A stretch of 64,000 nucleotides of DNA, taken from Apilactobacillus ozensis DSM 23829 = JCM 17196. Its GTDB lineage: Bacteria; Bacillota; Bacilli; Lactobacillales; Lactobacillaceae. A program made the translations under genes and the position numbers. Within the stretch, counting starts at the first letter, position 1. Every line of letters begins with the position of its first letter. The stretch lies in assembly GCF_001435995.1 (NCBI RefSeq), contig NZ_AYYQ01000001.1, forward strand, positions 59,076 through 123,075. Reading direction: 5' to 3'. Under the pieces are notes generated by a model. That model did not search any database and was not told where the DNA came from. It saw only the letters and a program-made list of their open reading frames with translations. This document shows, one piece after another, positions 4,722 to 18,896 of the stretch.

Positions 4722-4859
4722 AATACCAATGTGTTAGATAGGTTCGAGTTAAAGGTTACTTGTTTTATATGTTTTATGAAATAACTTCCTTGAACGATTC
4801 AAGCTTTATTATGATACATTAGAAATTTATAGCGCTATGCGCAACGGAGGTTTCATATT

Positions 4860-5063
4860 ATGAAACAAGGTACTGTTAAATGGTTTAACGCCGATAAAGG
4901 TTACGGATTTATTACTACTGAAGATGGCGATGTATTCGTTCACTTCTCAGCTATCAACAAAGACGGCTTCAAGACTTTAGAAGAAGGCGAAAAGGTTTCA
5001 TTGGACGTTGAAGAAGGCGACCGTGGACCACAAGCTGCTAACGTTACACCTGTTGAAGGTTAA
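4860..5063 (+). CDS. csp: Cold-shock protein (CspA family)
   Basis: Single-stranded nucleic-acid-binding RNA chaperone of 67 residues, one S1-like beta-barrel. The start [18 protein letters not shown] and RNP1 (KGYGFI), followed by RNP2 (VFVHF), are canonical, and the protein ends TPVEG as many lactobacillus Csps do. Strong GGAGG at 4846-4850. Monocistronic: its own promoter upstream and a hairpin terminator downstream. Codon use (many GTT, GGC, GAC) is that of a highly expressed gene and differs from the AT-rich neighbours. Which csp paralogue it is cannot be told. Confidence 0.97.
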
Positions 5064-5077
5064 TTCGTTAGTTAACA

Positions 5078-5113
5078 AAAAAGAGTTATCGTTAATTCGA
5101 TAACTCTTTTTTT
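5078..5113. terminator. Bidirectional terminator between csp and tetR-type gene
   Basis: Fourteen-base arms (AAAAAGAGTTATCG, 5078-5091; mate at 5098-5111) with a six-base loop, T-run on the csp side and A-run on the other, so it can end both convergent transcripts. Confidence 0.9.
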
Positions 5114-10739: not shown

Positions 10740-11675
10740 TTAACCATTTTTATCAATGCTTAATTTACGATGTGAACGCTGTAAAATGAAGATGGCTAAA
10801 ATAACTAACCCAGCTCCAAAAACTTTAATTAAGTTTAAACCAGTGTTGAAAAAAACAAAGCTAAGGATAAATGTTACTACCGGCTGAACCGCATCTACTA
10901 AACTAACTGCCTCTGATGGCGCAAATTTTAAAGCATGTAATATAATTAAAAATGGCAGAATCGTCCCGAATAAAATAATGGCCCCTATACCTAAAATAGT
11001 AAACAAACTAAGTTTAGGTGTATCAATCCAAATAGGTTGATGCAGATTAAAAATAATCCCTGCAACTAAAGTTCCCCACCCTAATACGACTACTGGCGGA
11101 TATTTTTTCAGAACTGGCCTTGGTAATACAACATAAAAGGCTGCTGTGACTCCTGAAAGAATTCCCCAAATCAATGAGTTCATTGGAATGGACAATTTAT
11201 GAATATCGCCTTGAGTAATTGATAGAAAAACCCCTAATAATGAAATTAAGAATACTACCATATCCGACTTCATTGGACGACGGTGTTGAAATACAATCGA
11301 TCCAATTAATATAAATACTGGAGATAGGTATTGTAAAATGGTTGATGCGTCAGCATTTCCCGTCTGGACACTTAAATAAAAAGTCATTAAATTAGCGCCT
11401 AATCCCAAAACTCCATATGCTAATAACCATAAAATGACTGATTTATCTTTCCATACGTTAAATATTTCTTTGTGATACATAAAACCACCGATTGATAATA
11501 AAACAATTCCAGAAATTATTGTACGAGTCGATAAGAACCAACCTGCTGGTATCGATGCGTTTTGCGATACAAATTGTAATATTGTACCAGAAGTCCCCCA
11601 TAAAGCAGACGCCAGCATCGCCCACATAATTCCCTTTAAAATATTTGTTTCTAAAATTCCTTTTTCACTTTCCAT
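10740..11675 (-). CDS. EamA/DMT-superfamily permease
   Basis: A 311-residue drug/metabolite transporter with ten membrane helices arranged as two EamA repeats (helices 1-5 and 6-10). The first helix carries SALWGTSGTILQFVSQN, matching the conserved ALxWGxxG motif; the second repeat ends with SEAVSLVDAVQPVVTFILSFVFF, a conserved EamA region. Amino-acid or metabolite export is usual for the family; substrate unknown. It is a close paralogue of the DMT gene upstream, evidently a tandem duplication. GAGGTG ribosome site. Own promoter with 16-base repeats at 11708-11762. Confidence 0.9.
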   Translation of the reverse strand: MESEKGILETNILKGIMWAMLASALWGTSGTILQFVSQNASIPAGWFLSTRTIISGIVLLSIGGFMYHKEIFNVWKDKSVILWLLAYGVLGLGANLMTFYLSVQTGNADASTILQYLSPVFILIGSIVFQHRRPMKSDMVVFLISLLGVFLSITQGDIHKLSIPMNSLIWGILSGVTAAFYVVLPRPVLKKYPPVVVLGWGTLVAGIIFNLHQPIWIDTPKLSLFTILGIGAIILFGTILPFLIILHALKFAPSEAVSLVDAVQPVVTFILSFVFFNTGLNLIKVFGAGLVILAIFILQRSHRKLSIDKNG

Positions 11676-11707
11676 TTTTTCACCTCAAAAAAATAAAACC
11701 ATAATTA

Positions 11708-11735
11708 ATTTTAAATTAATCTAACTAAAAGTCAA
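11708..11735 (-). promoter_or_regulatory. Promoter of the second DMT gene
   Basis: TTGACT (11730-11735) and TAAAAT (11708-11713) with 16 bases between. The -35 lies inside the tandem repeat, so a second TTGACT exists 16 bases further upstream. Confidence 0.55.
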
Positions 11736-11762
11736 TCTAACTAAAAGTCAATCTAACTAAAA
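11718..11762. repeat. 16-base tandem repeat, 2.8 copies
   Basis: AATCTAACTAAAAGTC is repeated exactly at 11718-11733 and 11734-11749, then 13 bases of a third copy to 11762, running directly into the terminator of the upstream gene. Each full unit carries a minus-strand TTGACT. Confidence 0.92.
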
Positions 11763-11792
11763 AAGCTAAGGTCATGTAAACCTTAGCTTTTT
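11761..11792 (-). terminator. Terminator after APC-DMT operon
   Basis: Arms AAAAGCTAAGG (11761-11771) and CCTTAGCTTTT (11781-11791) with a nine-base loop; on the minus strand a T-run follows. Confidence 0.88.
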
Positions 11793-11793
11793 A

Positions 11794-12711
11794 CTAATCT
11801 AATTTAGCTCGTTTTTGATGTGATTTTTGTAAAATATAAATTGCAACAATGATTAATGCTGAACCTAAAACTTCAATCATATCAATTTTCAAGCCTAAGA
11901 AAATAATACTTAAAATAAATGTAACTACTGGTTCTACCGCATCCACGATACTGGAAACTTCGGATGGTGCAAATTTCAAACTGTAAAGAACTGCGGAGAA
12001 CGCAAAAATAGTTCCAATCAAAATAACTCCACCAATTCCTAAAACGATTCCCGTGTTTAATTTAGGAGCTCCAACCCAAAATGGATGATAAAGATTAAAA
12101 CCAAATCCCGCAATTAAAGTTCCCCAGCCTAATACAACAAATGGTGAATTTTCTTCCATTAACTTTTTAGGAACGGAATAATAGATTGCAGCAGAAATAG
12201 CTGATAATAATCCAAAAACGATTGAAATCATAGGAATCGATAGTGAATGGAAATTACCCTTAGTAATTGCTAGAAAGACACCAACCAAAGCAATTAGGAA
12301 AGATATAACATCCACCAGCATTGGTTTCTTTCTTAAAAAGATAAGTCCATATAAGACAATAAATATTGGAGCCAAGTATTGTAAGATGGTAGCTGAAGCA
12401 GCGTTACCAGTTTGAATACTTACATAAAATGTTGACATATTTACTGCTAAACCGAAAATTGCATAAATAAATAATCTAATAATCGATTCTTTATTTTTAA
12501 AAACATCAAAAATTCTTTTACCAACATGTATATAACCAATTCCTAGCAATAACACACCAGCAAAAAGAGTTCTAACTGATATAAACCAGTTAGTAGGAAC
12601 AGCTTCGTTTTTCGCAACGAATTGCATGATTGTTCCGGATACCCCCCATAGAGCCGCAGCTAATCCAGACCAAAATATACCACGCATGACATGTTCATGT
12701 TTCATTTCCAT
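11794..12711 (-). CDS. EamA/DMT-superfamily permease
   Basis: A 305-residue ten-helix transporter of two EamA repeats, clearly paralogous to the gene at 10740-11675: LAAALWGVSGTIMQFVAKNEAVPTNWF compares with the same region there, as do the ITKGNFHSLSIPM and GWGTLIAGFGFNLYHPFW segments. It begins 21 bases after the APC permease stop and is followed by a terminator, so it is the second gene of an APC-DMT operon and would share control by the leader attenuator. An amino-acid-related substrate is therefore plausible but unproven. Confidence 0.9.
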   Translation of the reverse strand: MEMKHEHVMRGIFWSGLAAALWGVSGTIMQFVAKNEAVPTNWFISVRTLFAGVLLLGIGYIHVGKRIFDVFKNKESIIRLFIYAIFGLAVNMSTFYVSIQTGNAASATILQYLAPIFIVLYGLIFLRKKPMLVDVISFLIALVGVFLAITKGNFHSLSIPMISIVFGLLSAISAAIYYSVPKKLMEENSPFVVLGWGTLIAGFGFNLYHPFWVGAPKLNTGIVLGIGGVILIGTIFAFSAVLYSLKFAPSEVSSIVDAVEPVVTFILSIIFLGLKIDMIEVLGSALIIVAIYILQKSHQKRAKLD

Positions 12712-12732: not shown

Positions 12733-14148
12733 TTACTTCTTATTATTTACATTCAATTTACTATGTGAAATACCATATCCGAAGTAAATAACCAAACCAA
12801 TTATAAACCAAACTATAGCGATAATCCATGTTTCAGCAGGTAACTGAGTCATTAATCCTAGACACAACAATGTAGAAACGATTGGCAATATTGGATATAG
12901 TGGCACTTTAAATCCATCTTTATTATCAATATCTTTTCTTTTACGTAATGGAATAACTCCTAAAGATATGAAAGTAAATGCAATCAATGTTCCAATATTA
13001 ACCAAACTAGCTAATTTACTTAATGAAACAAATCCACCCATAAAAGCAATAATAATCGTTACGATAATAACACTATGCTTTGGAATATTATTTTTACTAT
13101 TAATCTTACCTAAAAACTTAGGTAATAAACCATCTCGACCAATTGAGTAAATCAATCTAGAGCTACTGTAAATCATAGTAACCATCATTGTAAACATTCC
13201 AGCTAAAGCACCTAATGAGATAATTCCGGATAGCTTACCTTGACCAACTACTTGTAAAGCAAATGCTACTGGATCAGAAACGTCCAATCTACTGTAATGA
13301 ACCATTCCAGTTAAAACAATAGAAACTAAAATATATAAGGCTGTACAGATAATTAATGTACCAAAGATTCCAATCGGCATGTTACGTTTAGGATTTTTAA
13401 CCTCAGCGGCAGACGATGACACACAATCAAATCCTAAGTACGCAAAGAATACTAATGAAGCCCCTTTAAATATTCCAGAAGTTCCGAAAGGTAAAAATGG
13501 TGTCCAATTACTTGGTTTAACGTAGAAGAACCCAACTATAACGAATAAAATTATGATTGCAATTTTTATTACAACGATGATACTGTTAATTCTAACTGAT
13601 GATTTTAATCCAAAAGATAAAATCCAAGCAATTAATAAAACTATTAATACCGCAAACAAGTTAAAATAAGTTCCATGTGAGGGATCATAAAAACCAGTTA
13701 AAGCTTTTGGGATATGAATACCAAATCCACTCAATAACGACTGAAAATAAGCTGACCATCCAGAAGATACTGCTGCAACTGACAGCATATATTCTAAGAC
13801 TAGCGCCCATCCTAGTATCCAACCGGTTAATTCACCAAACACTACACTTCCATATGAGTAAGCACTTCCTGCAATTGGTAATGCTGACGAAAATTCAGCA
13901 TAACATAGCGCACTAGTAGAACAAACTAAAGTCGCTAATATAAAAGAAATTATAATTCCTGGACCTGTATGTTGTGCTGATACGGTTCCTGGAAGAATAA
14001 AGATTCCAGTTCCAATAACTGCACCTACCCCTAACATAATTAAATCTTTAGCAGTTAAAGTACGCTCTAGTTGATTATCACGAGCTAAATAATTATCTAA
14101 AGATTCTTTTTGATTCATTCTCGAAACAATCCCCGATATTTTTCCCAT
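12733..14148 (-). CDS. APC-family amino acid permease (YfnA-like)
   Basis: A 471-residue amino acid:cation symporter or exchanger with about 12 membrane helices. The first helix has the APC substrate-binding signature GVGAVIGTGIFILPG (residues 41-55); helix 6 region FFAYLGFDCVSSSAAEVKNPKRNMP (near residue 235) is the conserved G-FD-----EE-KNP motif of cationic/neutral amino acid transporters such as YfnA and CAT types. ATG with CAAGGAGGA. Preceded by a leader peptide and alternative RNA hairpins (14175-14418), strongly suggesting expression is tuned to an amino acid. The Phe-rich leader hints at aromatic amino acid supply, but YfnA-like permeases vary in substrate. Confidence 0.93.
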   Translation of the reverse strand: MGKISGIVSRMNQKESLDNYLARDNQLERTLTAKDLIMLGVGAVIGTGIFILPGTVSAQHTGPGIIISFILATLVCSTSALCYAEFSSALPIAGSAYSYGSVVFGELTGWILGWALVLEYMLSVAAVSSGWSAYFQSLLSGFGIHIPKALTGFYDPSHGTYFNLFAVLIVLLIAWILSFGLKSSVRINSIIVVIKIAIIILFVIVGFFYVKPSNWTPFLPFGTSGIFKGASLVFFAYLGFDCVSSSAAEVKNPKRNMPIGIFGTLIICTALYILVSIVLTGMVHYSRLDVSDPVAFALQVVGQGKLSGIISLGALAGMFTMMVTMIYSSSRLIYSIGRDGLLPKFLGKINSKNNIPKHSVIIVTIIIAFMGGFVSLSKLASLVNIGTLIAFTFISLGVIPLRKRKDIDNKDGFKVPLYPILPIVSTLLCLGLMTQLPAETWIIAIVWFIIGLVIYFGYGISHSKLNVNNKK

Positions 14149-14174
14149 AAATATCCTCCTTGAAATAAAACGAT

Positions 14175-14214
14175 AAAAAAAATCGCACTAGCTAGTTATT
14201 CACTGCTAGTGCGA
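14175..14214 (-). terminator. Attenuator terminator in the APC permease leader
   Basis: Minus-strand arms TCGCACTAGC (14205-14214) and GCTAGTGCGA (14183-14192) with a 12-base loop, followed by eight T (14175-14182). It lies inside the leader, 27 bases before the permease ATG, so termination here would prevent permease expression. Confidence 0.9.
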
Positions 14215-14253
14215 AAAAACACTAGCCAAACAACTTACTTATAAGTTATCTGA

Positions 14254-14286
14254 CTAGTGTTTTGGAAGTTTTATAGTAAGACACAC
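14254..14286 (-). other. Possible second leader mini-ORF
   Basis: AAGGAG (14298-14303) is followed 11 bases later by GTG and ten sense codons (VCLTIKLPKH) ending in a TAG that lies inside segment B. If translated, it would place a ribosome on segment B and favour the antiterminator. Short and GTG-started, so it may be chance. Confidence 0.25.
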
Positions 14287-14307
14287 TTTTAAAATTTCTC
14301 CTTCGAA

Positions 14308-14382
14308 CTAGACAAGATAACTAGAAAAATTAAAGAAGAAATTATTAAAATTAGATATAGATGTTCGTCTATAAATTGTCAT
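14308..14382 (-). CDS. Leader peptide of the APC permease operon (24 residues)
   Basis: ATG with a perfect GGAGG (14389-14393) six bases upstream, 24 codons and TAG. The peptide is MTIYRRTSIS, then a run of nine residues made only of Asn and Phe (NFNNFFFNF, residues 11-19), then SSYLV. Five of 24 residues are Phe and four are Asn. The run precedes segment A of the RNA switch by just the distance needed for a ribosome halted at Phe12-Phe17 to leave segment A exposed. Too short for ordinary gene finders. The context (promoter, SD, hairpins, permease) makes a regulatory peptide much more likely than a functional product. Confidence 0.75.
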   Translation of the reverse strand: MTIYRRTSISNFNNFFFNFSSYLV

Positions 14383-14424
14383 ACCGTACCTCCGTTATTT
14401 ATATCGTTAAATTAATTTAATGTA

Positions 14425-14453
14425 ATTCTACATAATTTCTAATTTAATTGCAA
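14425..14453 (-). promoter_or_regulatory. Promoter of the APC leader
   Basis: TTGCAA (14448-14453), 17 bases, TAGAAT (14425-14430). Start near 14418. The 17 bases around -10 and start are identical to those of the opp promoter. Confidence 0.72.
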
Positions 14454-14455
14454 GT

Positions 14456-14491
14456 AAAAAGAGACCTTTTTTACAAAGAGGTCTCTTTTTT
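14456..14491 (-). terminator. Terminator of the TetR-MMPL operon
   Basis: Arms AAAAAGAGACCT (14456-14467) and AGGTCTCTTTTT (14479-14490), just after the MMPL stop codon at 14495. Confidence 0.88.
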
Positions 14492-14494
14492 AGA

Positions 14495-17164
14495 TTATTT
14501 TCTATGTTTTCCTTCACCATAAGTTAATTGAATAAAACTTGGTATAGTTATCGGAATAATAATTACTAGAATAACTAAACCAACAATTACTCCCATAGCA
14601 ACTTGAATTAGAGTTAAAACTCCAGAAGGCATTAATGCAGCAAAAGTGCCTCCTAAAATAACTGCTGCAGAAATAACTACGGTTCCGATTACAGAACATG
14701 CATGAATAATTTGTTGAGCGGGATTTGCATCAACATTATGATATTCACGATATTTCATCATTAAGAAGATGCTGTAATCAACACCTAAAGCAATTAACAT
14801 TACAAATGTAAAGAATGGTGTATTCCAAGTCAGCATATTTTGGCCTAGTAAAGCACCACTAATCATCTTAGTAATTCCTAATGAAGCTACATAGGCAAAT
14901 AACAATGTTCCTAAAATATACAATGGTTGTAAGATTGATCGAGTAATTACCATTAAAGCTACTGTAATTCCTATAACCATAATGATAGCTGTTCGCATAA
15001 AGTCAGAACTAGCAATTTTTCTAGTATCAGAAATGTTTGATGTTTGACCACCAATTGCCACTGTTGATGCAGATAAACTAGTTCCTTTTAAGTTATGTTC
15101 AACTTGACTTTGTAAATCATTTACTTGATTCATTGCAGTTTCAGAACTCGGATTATTATTTAGAACCAAAGTAATCTTAGCTGTTTTTTTGTCTTGTGAT
15201 AAATAAGTGTCAACTGATTCTTTAAAGGTATCGCTCTTTAAAACTTTATTTGGAATATAGAAAGTATCGGCAGCTTGTGACTTACCTAATGCTTTTAGAT
15301 ATTCATTAGATTGTCCCATTCCATTGCCAATTTGTTTAAGACCTTTATTAGCCTTCTTCAATTTAGCTTCCATAGCTTTTAATTGTTTAGCTAAGGTCTT
15401 AGTATCATTACCTATACTTTGAGTATCAGAAGCAATTCCTTGCAATCCACTAAGTGCGGCTTGTTGTTGGCTAGCTTGTTGTTGTAAAGCCATAGTCAAA
15501 ATTCTAGTTTGTGCAACTGAAAGTGGTTGATTTACCGCAGCCATACGTTTTTGTAAAGCTTTTACAGTGGAACTTACTGACTGACCACTAGTAGAAGTTT
15601 GCATTGATTGTAGTGAACTTGCAATCGATTGTGCTGATTGACCAATGTTTTGTAATGACGAAGTATCAAAAGATGATTTAGTAGCGGCTTTATTAATTTT
15701 GTTCAAACCACTTTTAGCTTTACCCATTTTATTAGTTAGTGTGCCTAACTGATCACTAACATATAGTTGATCAACTGGCATTCCACTTGGTTGAGTAACT
15801 GAAGCAGCAGTTTTAATGCCCTTTTGATTACTTAATTGTGTTGTAACTCGGTCAATTTCATTTAAATCTTTTTCGTTATCTAAACGGTGATTAGACTTAA
15901 TGTAAACTGTAGATGGTTCAGCAGTTCCTTTAGAGAAATGACCTTGAACAACTAATAATCCTTGTTTAGAAGGTACATCGTTATGCAATTCAACAGTGTC
16001 ATCATAATTTAAGTTATTATGATAACTTACCATAAATGGAACTGTTACAATTAGTGCTACTACTAAAGCTATGATTGGTTGTTTGGTAGAAACTGAAGCA
16101 ATCCATTTCCAAACTTTATTTTGACCTTCACCGTTAAAGTTCTTAGATGGCCAGAAAATATTTTTACCCAATAATGACATAAAGAATGGGTTCAATGTCG
16201 TTAGAACTAATAATAAGACTGCTACTCCAACGGCTACCCCAACTGCAGAACGGTAAATAGAGAAGTTAGCTAATCCTAAAGTAGCAAAACCAATTAGAAC
16301 AGATAATCCTGAGAATAAGATAGTCTTACCGGCAACTTTTCTAGCATGAATGGTTGCCGTAACGTTATCCTTACCTCGACTGAGTTCTTCTTTAAACTGA
16401 TTATATAAGAGAATATTGTAATCAGTTCCTATTCCAAATAGCACAACCACTAAAAATACCCTTGTAAAATTGGAAAGTGGGAAATTAAATGCTGAAACTA
16501 AATTCATTACAATACTTAGTGAAACAATTAATGAAACTCCCACCGTTAATAGTGAAATTAATGGTACTACTGGAGAACGGAAAACTAGTATTAAAACAAT
16601 TAAAATAAAAATAGCTGCAATAACTTCTGTCTTCTTAATTCCATTTTCAGTTGAAACTCTAAAGTCATCATTTAAAATATCTCCACCAGTTACATAGGTG
16701 TATACACCTTCAGTCGAAACTGATTTAGATAGTTGTTGATTAATACTTTGAATTGAACGGTCTTTTGTGACGTTTAACTGCACTAATTCAGTTGTTTTAT
16801 CTTTTGAAACTAATTGTTTCTGAGTTGCAGCATTATCAAATGGCGCGGTAATACCTTTTATACCATACTTATTTTTATTATCACGCAATTTTTGAATGGT
16901 ACTATTGATATTACTTTGTTGAGTATTATCAATCGCCTTGTTACCAGTATTAAATACTATAACTGCTTCCGTCGTGTTGCTAATATTATGACCCCAACCG
17001 CCTTGAATCGATTGAGCCACTTGACTTTGCATGTTGGATGGTATTTTAGTTTGACCCTTTTGACTAACTAATGTAGACATGTTGGGTAAAAATACAATAC
17101 TCAAAATAACTGCTACAAGCCAAGCAATTGCAACACCAGAATATTTCTTAATAAAATTTGGCAT
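14495..17164 (-). CDS. MMPL-family transporter
   Basis: An 889-residue RND-type membrane protein in two halves. Each half has one N-terminal helix, a large outside domain, and a group of five helices: residues about 7-28 then 180-345, and 360-380 then 725-880. The first helix group contains the GIGTDYNILLYNQFKEEL motif and the second GVDYSIFLMMKYREY, the conserved GxxxDYx motifs with the proton-relay Asp. The second outside domain is long and rich in Gln/Ser coiled coil (residues 470-640). It follows a TetR gene in the same operon, so drug or lipid efflux under repressor control is likely. Substrate unknown. Confidence 0.92.
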   Translation of the reverse strand: MPNFIKKYSGVAIAWLVAVILSIVFLPNMSTLVSQKGQTKIPSNMQSQVAQSIQGGWGHNISNTTEAVIVFNTGNKAIDNTQQSNINSTIQKLRDNKNKYGIKGITAPFDNAATQKQLVSKDKTTELVQLNVTKDRSIQSINQQLSKSVSTEGVYTYVTGGDILNDDFRVSTENGIKKTEVIAAIFILIVLILVFRSPVVPLISLLTVGVSLIVSLSIVMNLVSAFNFPLSNFTRVFLVVVLFGIGTDYNILLYNQFKEELSRGKDNVTATIHARKVAGKTILFSGLSVLIGFATLGLANFSIYRSAVGVAVGVAVLLLVLTTLNPFFMSLLGKNIFWPSKNFNGEGQNKVWKWIASVSTKQPIIALVVALIVTVPFMVSYHNNLNYDDTVELHNDVPSKQGLLVVQGHFSKGTAEPSTVYIKSNHRLDNEKDLNEIDRVTTQLSNQKGIKTAASVTQPSGMPVDQLYVSDQLGTLTNKMGKAKSGLNKINKAATKSSFDTSSLQNIGQSAQSIASSLQSMQTSTSGQSVSSTVKALQKRMAAVNQPLSVAQTRILTMALQQQASQQQAALSGLQGIASDTQSIGNDTKTLAKQLKAMEAKLKKANKGLKQIGNGMGQSNEYLKALGKSQAADTFYIPNKVLKSDTFKESVDTYLSQDKKTAKITLVLNNNPSSETAMNQVNDLQSQVEHNLKGTSLSASTVAIGGQTSNISDTRKIASSDFMRTAIIMVIGITVALMVITRSILQPLYILGTLLFAYVASLGITKMISGALLGQNMLTWNTPFFTFVMLIALGVDYSIFLMMKYREYHNVDANPAQQIIHACSVIGTVVISAAVILGGTFAALMPSGVLTLIQVAMGVIVGLVILVIIIPITIPSFIQLTYGEGKHRK

Positions 17165-17890: not shown

Positions 17891-17923
17891 AAAAAGGCAG
17901 CTATTAAATTAGCTACCTTTTTT
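17891..17923 (-). terminator. Terminator of the DMT gene at 17.9 kb
   Basis: Minus-strand arms AAAAAGGTAGCT / AGCTGCCTTTTT with one G-U pair, overlapping the stop codon at 17909. Confidence 0.82.
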
Positions 17924-18811
17924 AGCTCCTAATGAAAGAATAAAGACCGTGCTTAAAATCATAATTCCACCAAAAATTTCATAAACATTAAATGGCGTGT
18001 TTAAAAATAATATTGTGCCTAAAGTAGCTGATAATGGTTCAAAAGTGTTCAAAAGTCCAGCTACCGTTGGCGAAATAAATTTAAGACTGTTAATGAAACA
18101 TAAGAACGAGGTCATAGTCCCAAATAGCACAATAAATGAAACTCCTAAAACCGTTCCTAAATTTAAATTAGGCATTTCATGCCAAAAGGGATGAATAATG
18201 GTGAAAATAAAGCCACCAATTATCATGGCCCATCCCACTACTAATAATGAGCTGAATTTCTTTAATAAATTAACGGGTAACATAGTTTGAATCGCTCCTG
18301 AAAGAGCTAGCAATAGACCTAAAGTTAAAGCTACATTGGTTATGGCCAAGTGAGTTAAATGTCCCTTCGTCACTAATAACCACGTTCCCATTAACGCTAC
18401 TAGCACAGCAATTAATTCATATTTACTAGGTGCATGTTTATAAATAATGACCGTTAAAATTACTATAAAAACGGTTCCTAAGCTTTGTAAAATGGTTGCT
18501 GTCCCAGCGTTACTAGCTCTAACCGTTACCAAATATAAATATTGCACTGCTGATAATCCGAAGACTGCATACAGTAAAAAAACAATAACATTATTTTTAC
18601 CCTTCCAGATCTTTAAAATATGTTCATGTTTAATGAACTTGGTGAATAATAATATTAAAATTCCAGAAACACCCATTTTGACGCCCATCAACCATTCAGG
18701 TGATAGATGATTATCCGCAAATAAATACTGTGATACTGGACCTTGAATTCCCCATAATAATGAACCAAAGATTGCCAAAAATGCGCCAAAAACTTTTTTA
18801 TGTACATTCAA
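17909..18811 (-). CDS. EamA/DMT-superfamily permease (third copy)
   Basis: A ten-helix drug/metabolite transporter of about 300 residues with two EamA repeats. The first helix reads FGSLLWGIQGPVSQYLF and the last repeat has SPTVAGLLNTFEPLSATLGTILFL, the conserved C-terminal helix-9 region. It is more distant from the other two DMT genes than they are from each other. A TTG at 18811 is chosen because GGAAG lies eight bases upstream; the earlier TTG at 18826 lacks a ribosome site. An extended -10 (TGTTATAAT, 18848-18856) lies about 35 bases upstream. Monocistronic. Confidence 0.88.
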   Translation of the reverse strand: MNVHKKVFGAFLAIFGSLLWGIQGPVSQYLFADNHLSPEWLMGVKMGVSGILILLFTKFIKHEHILKIWKGKNNVIVFLLYAVFGLSAVQYLYLVTVRASNAGTATILQSLGTVFIVILTVIIYKHAPSKYELIAVLVALMGTWLLVTKGHLTHLAITNVALTLGLLLALSGAIQTMLPVNLLKKFSSLLVVGWAMIIGGFIFTIIHPFWHEMPNLNLGTVLGVSFIVLFGTMTSFLCFINSLKFISPTVAGLLNTFEPLSATLGTILFLNTPFNVYEIFGGIMILSTVFILSLGAKKGS

Positions 18812-18896
18812 TTTAAAAACTTCCAATCGTAAATTATTAACTTTTGCATTATAACATAGTTAACTGCCACGGTTATCTCGTAAAAAGCTTAAATAA

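Follow-up and report, generated by a model that had tools for sequence, protein, structure and literature searches.

Results

The window (the whole 64,000-nt stretch of Apilactobacillus ozensis DNA analysed here) carries, between 14149 and 14453 on the minus strand, an RNA element ahead of an APC-family amino acid permease gene (12733..14148, minus strand), flanked on its other side by an MMPL transporter gene (14495-17164). An earlier reading, made from the letters alone and called here the sequence-only reading, had described a leader-peptide attenuator before this permease. Our analysis adds its minus-strand orientation, a further stem (P0), a U6 tail behind the first hairpin and an EamA gene 21 nt after the permease. 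A consensus scan placed a promoter-like site, TTGCAA - 17 nt - TAGAAT, at 14425..14453 (minus strand); such sites are no more frequent in this region than in shuffles, and by eye most of the 16 Apilactobacillus leaders have a similar TTGCA...TAxxAT in the same position. Between this site and the MMPL gene lies a terminator-like hairpin (14456-14490), flanked by an A-run on one side and a T-run on the other, which perhaps works in both directions.

The leader ORF (14308..14382, minus strand) has 24 codons and reads MTIYRRTSISNFNNFFFNFSSYLV; its Shine-Dalgarno sequence, GGAGG, is at 14389..14393 (minus strand), and the 16 Apilactobacillus leaders all have GGAGG before their ATG. Residues N11 to F19 are nine consecutive Asn/Phe codons (N F N N F F F N F), just as the sequence-only reading had counted them. 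By sequence and comparison, the core of the peptide is FNNFFFNF, and its codons F12-F19 (14326..14349, minus strand) are the presumed stall site.

Five segments, A to E, all on the minus strand, can be laid out so that two mutually exclusive folds form, A:B plus C:D or B:C plus D:E, as had been drawn from the letters. Segment A (AGUUAUCU..CUAGU..GAAGG; 14300..14322) covers the last codons of the leader, stop included, which agrees with its earlier placement. It lies largely within the loop of stem P0 (14287..14350, approximate ends), in which, according to fold and alignments, the Phe codons pair with the RNA just past the stop codon. Segment B (CUUCC..ACUAG..AGAUAACU; 14244..14268) may pair with A, in a helix showing two-sided changes, or with segment C (GGCUAGUGUUUUUU; 14214..14227). 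Hairpin B:C (14216..14263) has six U behind it and is the first terminator-like hairpin; hairpin D:E with its eight U (14175..14214), already part of the earlier proposal, is the second. Because B:C has its own U6 tail, two terminator-like hairpins stand here in tandem. Segment D (UCGCACUAGC; 14205..14214) could also pair with C, and C:D is the predicted antiterminator.

The sequence-only reading had noted that no T-box was present. Indeed, no match to RF00230 was found at the gathering score in the window, nor up to E 10 in 14100-14520; the genome as a whole gives 26 T-box matches with E of at most 0.001. Rfam includes a Phe leader family, and no Rfam leader family was found at the gathering score in the window or among the 24 matches that 14100-14520 gives up to E 10. 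At 4754-5110 (plus strand), the window also contains a match to the Rfam cspA thermoregulator (79.9 bits, gathering score 78).

The leader observation is real. The 272-nt leader folds at -81.9 kcal/mol, compared with -45.6 +/- 4.0 kcal/mol in 200 shuffles (z -9.0), and an SD-preceded ORF with a Phe cluster followed by a terminator-like hairpin arose in only 3 of 2000 shuffles of this region. When the upstream regions of 154 permease loci were shuffled, the same combination was seen 4 times in 770; of the 154 real regions, 45 have it.

The gene behind the leader does encode an APC permease, as previously read. Its nearest NCBIfam model is BcaP (NF053761), the cut-off of which is not reached (629.8 vs 690 bits), and by sequence the protein is closest to the solved bacterial transporter 5oqt/6f34. 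It is distantly like BcaP and resembles a branched-chain more than an aromatic transporter, which counts against the Phe reading. The EamA (DMT) transporter gene that follows (11794..12711, minus strand; Pfam) is probably in the same transcript, and the gap between the two genes holds no terminator-like site. The seven Apilactobacillus loci checked all have a co-oriented EamA-like gene 14-28 nt behind the permease, its identity being established by Pfam for the window and by eye elsewhere. One also follows after 81 nt in L128, which has the same permease as Lactobacillus sp. Sy-1, and after 175 nt in L111; another kind of gene comes next in each of the eight loci checked in other groups. Behind the permease, the window has two EamA genes in the same orientation (10740-12711, minus strand), and a further DMT-like gene was recognised by eye at 17909-18826.

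Permease loci were gathered from 60 relatives (30 loci), from named genomes (the best 80 of 322), from a family-level search of 301 genomes (212 matched, 21 new loci), from the genus of G034 (5 new loci) and from 40 further stretches hand-picked among the matches listed, leaning to genera of interest; 22 duplicates were removed from these 176 loci to leave 154 distinct ones. Upstream regions were scanned for a Shine-Dalgarno sequence, an ORF of 8-40 codons in which some six-residue stretch contains the same residue three times or more, and a terminator-like hairpin after the ORF, within 450 nt. Applied to each of the 20 residues in turn over the 154 regions, this rule returned Phe at 45 loci, Asn at 19, Leu at 11, Ser at 7, Lys at 4 and the others at 0-2; 18 of the 19 Asn-cluster loci are Phe loci too. 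Four leaders were added by eye, one for its wider Phe spacing (L094) and three lying further upstream (L126, L134 and L135). The resulting total of 49 Phe-rich leaders in 154 distinct loci is, because of how the loci were gathered, a count within this chosen set and not a family frequency.

The leader layout precedes the permease in all 16 Apilactobacillus genomes compared (the closest relative in the set, G014, has a permease 94% identical to that of the window) and recurs in five further genera, namely Secundilactobacillus, Furfurilactobacillus, the genus of Lactobacillus sp. Sy-1, g42 and g20. No residue other than Phe is clustered in every one of the six. Two loci inside the leader clade, L111 and L145, have a single Phe codon and keep the terminator-like hairpin. 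With a model of the element, Model R1, each of the 13 Apilactobacillus genomes searched gave a single strong match, immediately before the permease, and no second copy; five weak opposite-strand matches coincide in place with the element and resemble mirror matches. The 8 genomes of other families gave no strong match. In every genome, scoring covered the best 137 candidates. Among viral contigs, 3 stretches fit a pattern, none of them a relative. For 20 leaderless relatives, out of the 105 loci without a Phe leader (two weak ones included), Rfam revealed no T-box around the permease. In this leaderless material, a Ref68 sRNA (Lacto-3) match lies upstream of the permease homologue of L021 (3053-3174, minus strand), and a cspA match downstream of that of L019.

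Across these leaders, the peptides have little more than the Phe cluster in common. Apilactobacillus cores read NNNFFFN, NNNFFFK or FNNFFFNF, and those of Secundilactobacillus RFFFFFN, RFFFFN, RFSFFFN or RFYFFFN; L005 and L123, which share a genus code with Secundilactobacillus, have SGFFFFN and SGFFFN. The g42 cores are FSFFFK or FNFFFK, that of Sy-1 is FNRKFFSF, Furfurilactobacillus has FAFSLF (NFNDGAFSLF in L094) and g20 has FxFxxF (FRFWFF in L027). Between clades, both the N-terminal halves and the C-terminal ends vary. Even within Apilactobacillus the peptides end in NLN*, NITSC*, KLLAI* or NFELAI*: the motif CUAGCU/CUAGUY and its surroundings are kept as nucleotides but read in different frames, and only the Phe core stays in frame. 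Such frame-shifting ends over kept nucleotides are what Phe-codon sensing combined with RNA pairing would predict, and do not fit a sequence-specific stall peptide.

The sequence-only reading had left Phe and Asn side by side as the sensed residue, and had expected both kinds of codon to be kept while the others drift. The Phe half of this stands, since a Phe cluster is present in all six genera, in frame and with variable ends. The Asn half does not: an Asn cluster was found in all 16 Apilactobacillus leaders, in the Sy-1 leader (two loci) and in the weak leader L111, but in none of the Secundilactobacillus, Furfurilactobacillus, g42 or g20 leaders, which keep the Phe cluster only. The AAUAAU of the Apilactobacillus leaders also belongs to stem P0, which can explain why these Asn codons are conserved.

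Conservation of the two folds was assessed in three alignments, A1 with 16 Apilactobacillus leaders, A2 with 11 of the 12 Secundilactobacillus-type leaders (L160 was left out because its terminator was missed) and A3 with all six g42 leaders, tallied by script only. Rows L001 and L002 of A1 are misaligned at D, and the leaders of Sy-1, L145, L111, g20 and Furfurilactobacillus lie outside these covariation alignments. In A1, 95.9% of cells are paired in the antiterminator fold, with two-sided changes at 4 pairs (9 cells), and 95.3% in the terminator fold (6 pairs, 14 cells); the corresponding values in A2 are 91.2% (3 pairs, 7 cells) and 96.4% (7 pairs, 18 cells). When partners were slid by 1-3 columns, 20-57% of cells were paired, as against 91-96% for the true partners. 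Folding and covariation across relatives had been suggested as a check of the attenuator; in two genera, each fold retains pairs in spite of two-sided changes.

Shuffles reached the observed number of two-sided cells in 0/500 cases for the antiterminator and 0/500 for the terminator fold of A1, and in 3/500 and 0/500 for those of A2; the number of two-sided pairs was reached in 59/500 and 3/500 (A1) and in 242/500 and 0/500 (A2). Since the aligned sequences are related, these figures are support and not a probability, and counted by two-sided pairs the antiterminator fold does not stand out from its shuffles. Within that fold, C:D has one such pair in each of A1 and A2. We consider A:B as a predicted helix fairly well supported and C:D weakly supported. 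Stem P0 comprises 13 pairs in A1 (97.9% of cells paired), 10 in A2 (100%) and 11 in A3; being mostly invariant, it draws no support from covariation.

Tests on single leaders were less uniform. Pairing of D with upstream RNA gave p <= 0.05 in 4 of 21 single-leader shuffle tests. When partners were swapped between clades, the leader's own A:B beat about 95% or more of the swaps in 5 of 8 groups and its own C:D in 1 of 8, in a test that is blurred by the CUAG motifs shared among clades. The segment finder returned no good C:D in g20 or Furfurilactobacillus and no B:C hairpin in L111 and L174. In two Apilactobacillus genomes (L013 and L015), the B:C hairpin is present without its U-tract, and D:E retains its own; B:C therefore need not be a terminator everywhere.

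In 14 of the 15 leaders measured outside Furfurilactobacillus (a later isolated Phe codon in L001, L002, L013 and L005 was excluded from the core), the first base of the last core Phe codon and the first paired base of A lie 7-12 nt apart; in the fifteenth, L002, an extended helix shortens this to 4 nt. In the same 15 leaders, the distance from the last core Phe codon to the stop varies from 6 to 30 nt. The two Furfurilactobacillus leaders measured fall outside the Phe-codon-to-A spacing. Given the footprint of a ribosome, one held at the Phe codons would leave A free, and one at the stop codon would cover it.

Energy calculations were made for the window and selected relatives. In the window, L006, L130 and L126, A:B is the most stable structure at the moment when B has just been transcribed and A is unoccupied. 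In the full transcript with A free, the terminator fold is lower than the fold with A:B kept by 12.9 (window), 11.0 (L006), 5.6 (L130) and 8.9 (L126) kcal/mol. When A:B is kept, C:D appears in the window, and D:E is not replaced in L006, L130 and L126; in L067 (Furfurilactobacillus), the kept helix is compatible with the terminator and no exclusion was seen. Furthermore, when three leaders were each folded at equilibrium with a ribosome set at three positions, terminator-like hairpins were part of all 9 best folds. Since equilibrium favours the terminator fold, the switch would have to be kinetic, being settled during transcription.

In five g42 loci (L126, L134, L135, L136 and L137), additional sequence, which in some looks repetitive, separates the terminator hairpin from the permease; the leader stop of L126 and that of L134 are each about 440 nt away from the permease gene.

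Discussion

We propose that the element is a transcription attenuator of the trp/his type that senses Phe supply and controls the permease gene, a reading of its predicted behaviour to which we give a probability of about 0.85. Attenuator type, direction and segment layout, as set out in the sequence-only reading, all survive the comparison across genera. From the arrangement of ORF, Phe cluster and segments we infer that the ORF is translated and that, when Phe-tRNA is scarce, the ribosome would wait at the Phe codons. This would open stem P0 and free segment A, which starts about a dozen nucleotides or less past the Phe core. A would then pair with B as B emerges, leaving C free for D, and neither terminator-like hairpin would form; transcription would run on through the permease gene and, probably, through the EamA gene too. 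When Phe is plentiful, a ribosome reaching the stop codon would cover A, so that B:C and D:E would form and transcription would end. With no translation, P0 would keep A in its loop, and termination is expected as well.

Other explanations share parts of this scheme. The leader might sense ribosome-targeting antibiotics or a general slowdown of translation, in the style of BmrB or erm/cat, with the Phe codons as a convenient stall site. The RNA logic would be identical, and BmrB of B. subtilis is a known case in which antibiotics act through the ribosome on the attenuation of a transporter (PMC4191407). However, the gene behind the leader is an amino acid permease and no recognised resistance or efflux gene, and the peptide, C-terminus included, differs between clades apart from its Phe clustering; we regard this explanation as unlikely. 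Sensing of Asn, or of Asn and Phe jointly, is suggested by the Asn-rich run of the window and by the Asn clusters of all 16 Apilactobacillus leaders, Sy-1 and L111. We find it very unlikely, given that the leaders of Secundilactobacillus, g42, Furfurilactobacillus and g20 do without an Asn cluster and that the role of AAUAAU in stem P0 can account for its conservation in Apilactobacillus.

The strength and conservation of the folds would also suit an RNA attenuator that binds a protein or ligand, with the ORF incidental. This would leave the recurrence of an SD-led ORF with an in-frame Phe cluster over leaders of unlike sequence to coincidence, as well as the narrow spacing from the Phe core to A, and no Rfam family is matched at threshold; we give it scant credence. 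Least credible of all appears the idea of two ordinary terminators with no regulation. Although terminator-like hairpins are part of the best fold in all nine foldings, they stand behind a short SD-led ORF and right before a permease, and the competing A:B and C:D helices have some two-sided changes of their own.

In its design, the proposed Phe-sensing attenuator is close to the enterobacterial his, trp and pheA attenuators, which likewise have a peptide with a codon run, a stop beside the first switch segment and mutually exclusive hairpins; the enterobacterial his attenuator also chains several hairpins, as here. It differs from them in preceding a permease instead of a biosynthetic operon, in occurring in Lactobacillaceae, in matching no Rfam leader family and, in the window, in having two tandem terminator-like hairpins and one antiterminator.

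Firmicutes are noted for sensing amino acids through T-boxes, and the sequence-only reading had called attenuation of the present kind rare among them. This is a fair description, with the qualification that leader-peptide attenuation in Firmicutes is already in print. The precedents include Rli60 before the ilv genes of L. monocytogenes, a ribosome-mediated transcription attenuator with terminator and antiterminator tested by mutation (PMC5864092), which answers to branched-chain amino acids and serves biosynthesis genes; the ilv-leu attenuator of S. aureus, whose codon-specific leader peptide carries Leu (and Ile) codons and which also lies on a biosynthesis operon (PMC5794164); and the His leader peptide of hisS/hisZ in bacilli, found by comparative genomics before genes of the tRNA-synthetase family (PMC2965389). 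All three share with our element a Firmicutes host and, as we predict for it, control through the ribosome or a codon run. BmrB is, like the present leader, a peptide before a transporter, but with an antibiotic signal and an ABC exporter (bmrCD; PMC4191407). T-boxes, for their part, have been used to predict the substrates of transporters, including a Phe T-box before an NSS transporter (PMC2494555); they too answer to tRNA charging, yet by direct binding of the tRNA and with no peptide. Among the titles and abstracts listed in our searches of open-licence papers, we found no Phe leader or permease attenuator in lactobacilli.

The present leaders show the classical leader-peptide layout recurring in six genera of one T-box-using family, on a transporter. 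If our reading is true, the codon run would tell which amino acid the permease imports, where similarity to BcaP suggests others. Moreover, these leaders would form a natural set of attenuators, of unlike sequence and one plan, for testing kinetic RNA switching.

More tentatively, and at somewhat less than even odds, we suggest that Phe-codon attenuators may have arisen three or more times in the T-box-rich Lactobacillaceae, on a single group of BcaP-like permeases, that the leaders would accordingly mark these permeases as Phe importers, and that the Apilactobacillus lineage may switch importer and EamA gene as a unit. Phe auxotrophy was considered as a general explanation. Prephenate dehydratase (PF00800) was found in none of the 16 Apilactobacillus genomes (controls positive in 14 of 14), which speaks for the Phe reading in that genus. 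Outside g21, all 19 genomes of the leader type lack it, including two whose leaders are the weak ones. It is present in 11 of 11 genomes of g21, the group that includes Secundilactobacillus, and in 1 of 16 genomes chosen as leaderless. The explanation thus fails for g21/Secundilactobacillus and, since the g21 genomes do have PF00800, auxotrophy is no general correlate.

A quick maximum-likelihood tree of the 154 permeases, with SH-aLRT as its only support measure, gathers 36 Phe-leader loci, two weak ones and one locus without a leader (L051) in one group (support 89). The 8 Furfurilactobacillus and 5 g20 loci lie apart from this main leader group, in a tree where long branches meet around g20. 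Presence or absence of the Phe leader requires five changes on the tree, the two weak loci not being counted, and gain and loss of the leader cannot be told apart on it. L178, a second permease copy beside L176, has no leader. In L051 (Secundilactobacillus silagincola), a transposase-like frame (TnpB-type by eye) ends directly upstream of the permease, in a region reaching to about 350 nt from the gene, at the site of the leader in relatives, and has apparently parted this permease from its attenuator.
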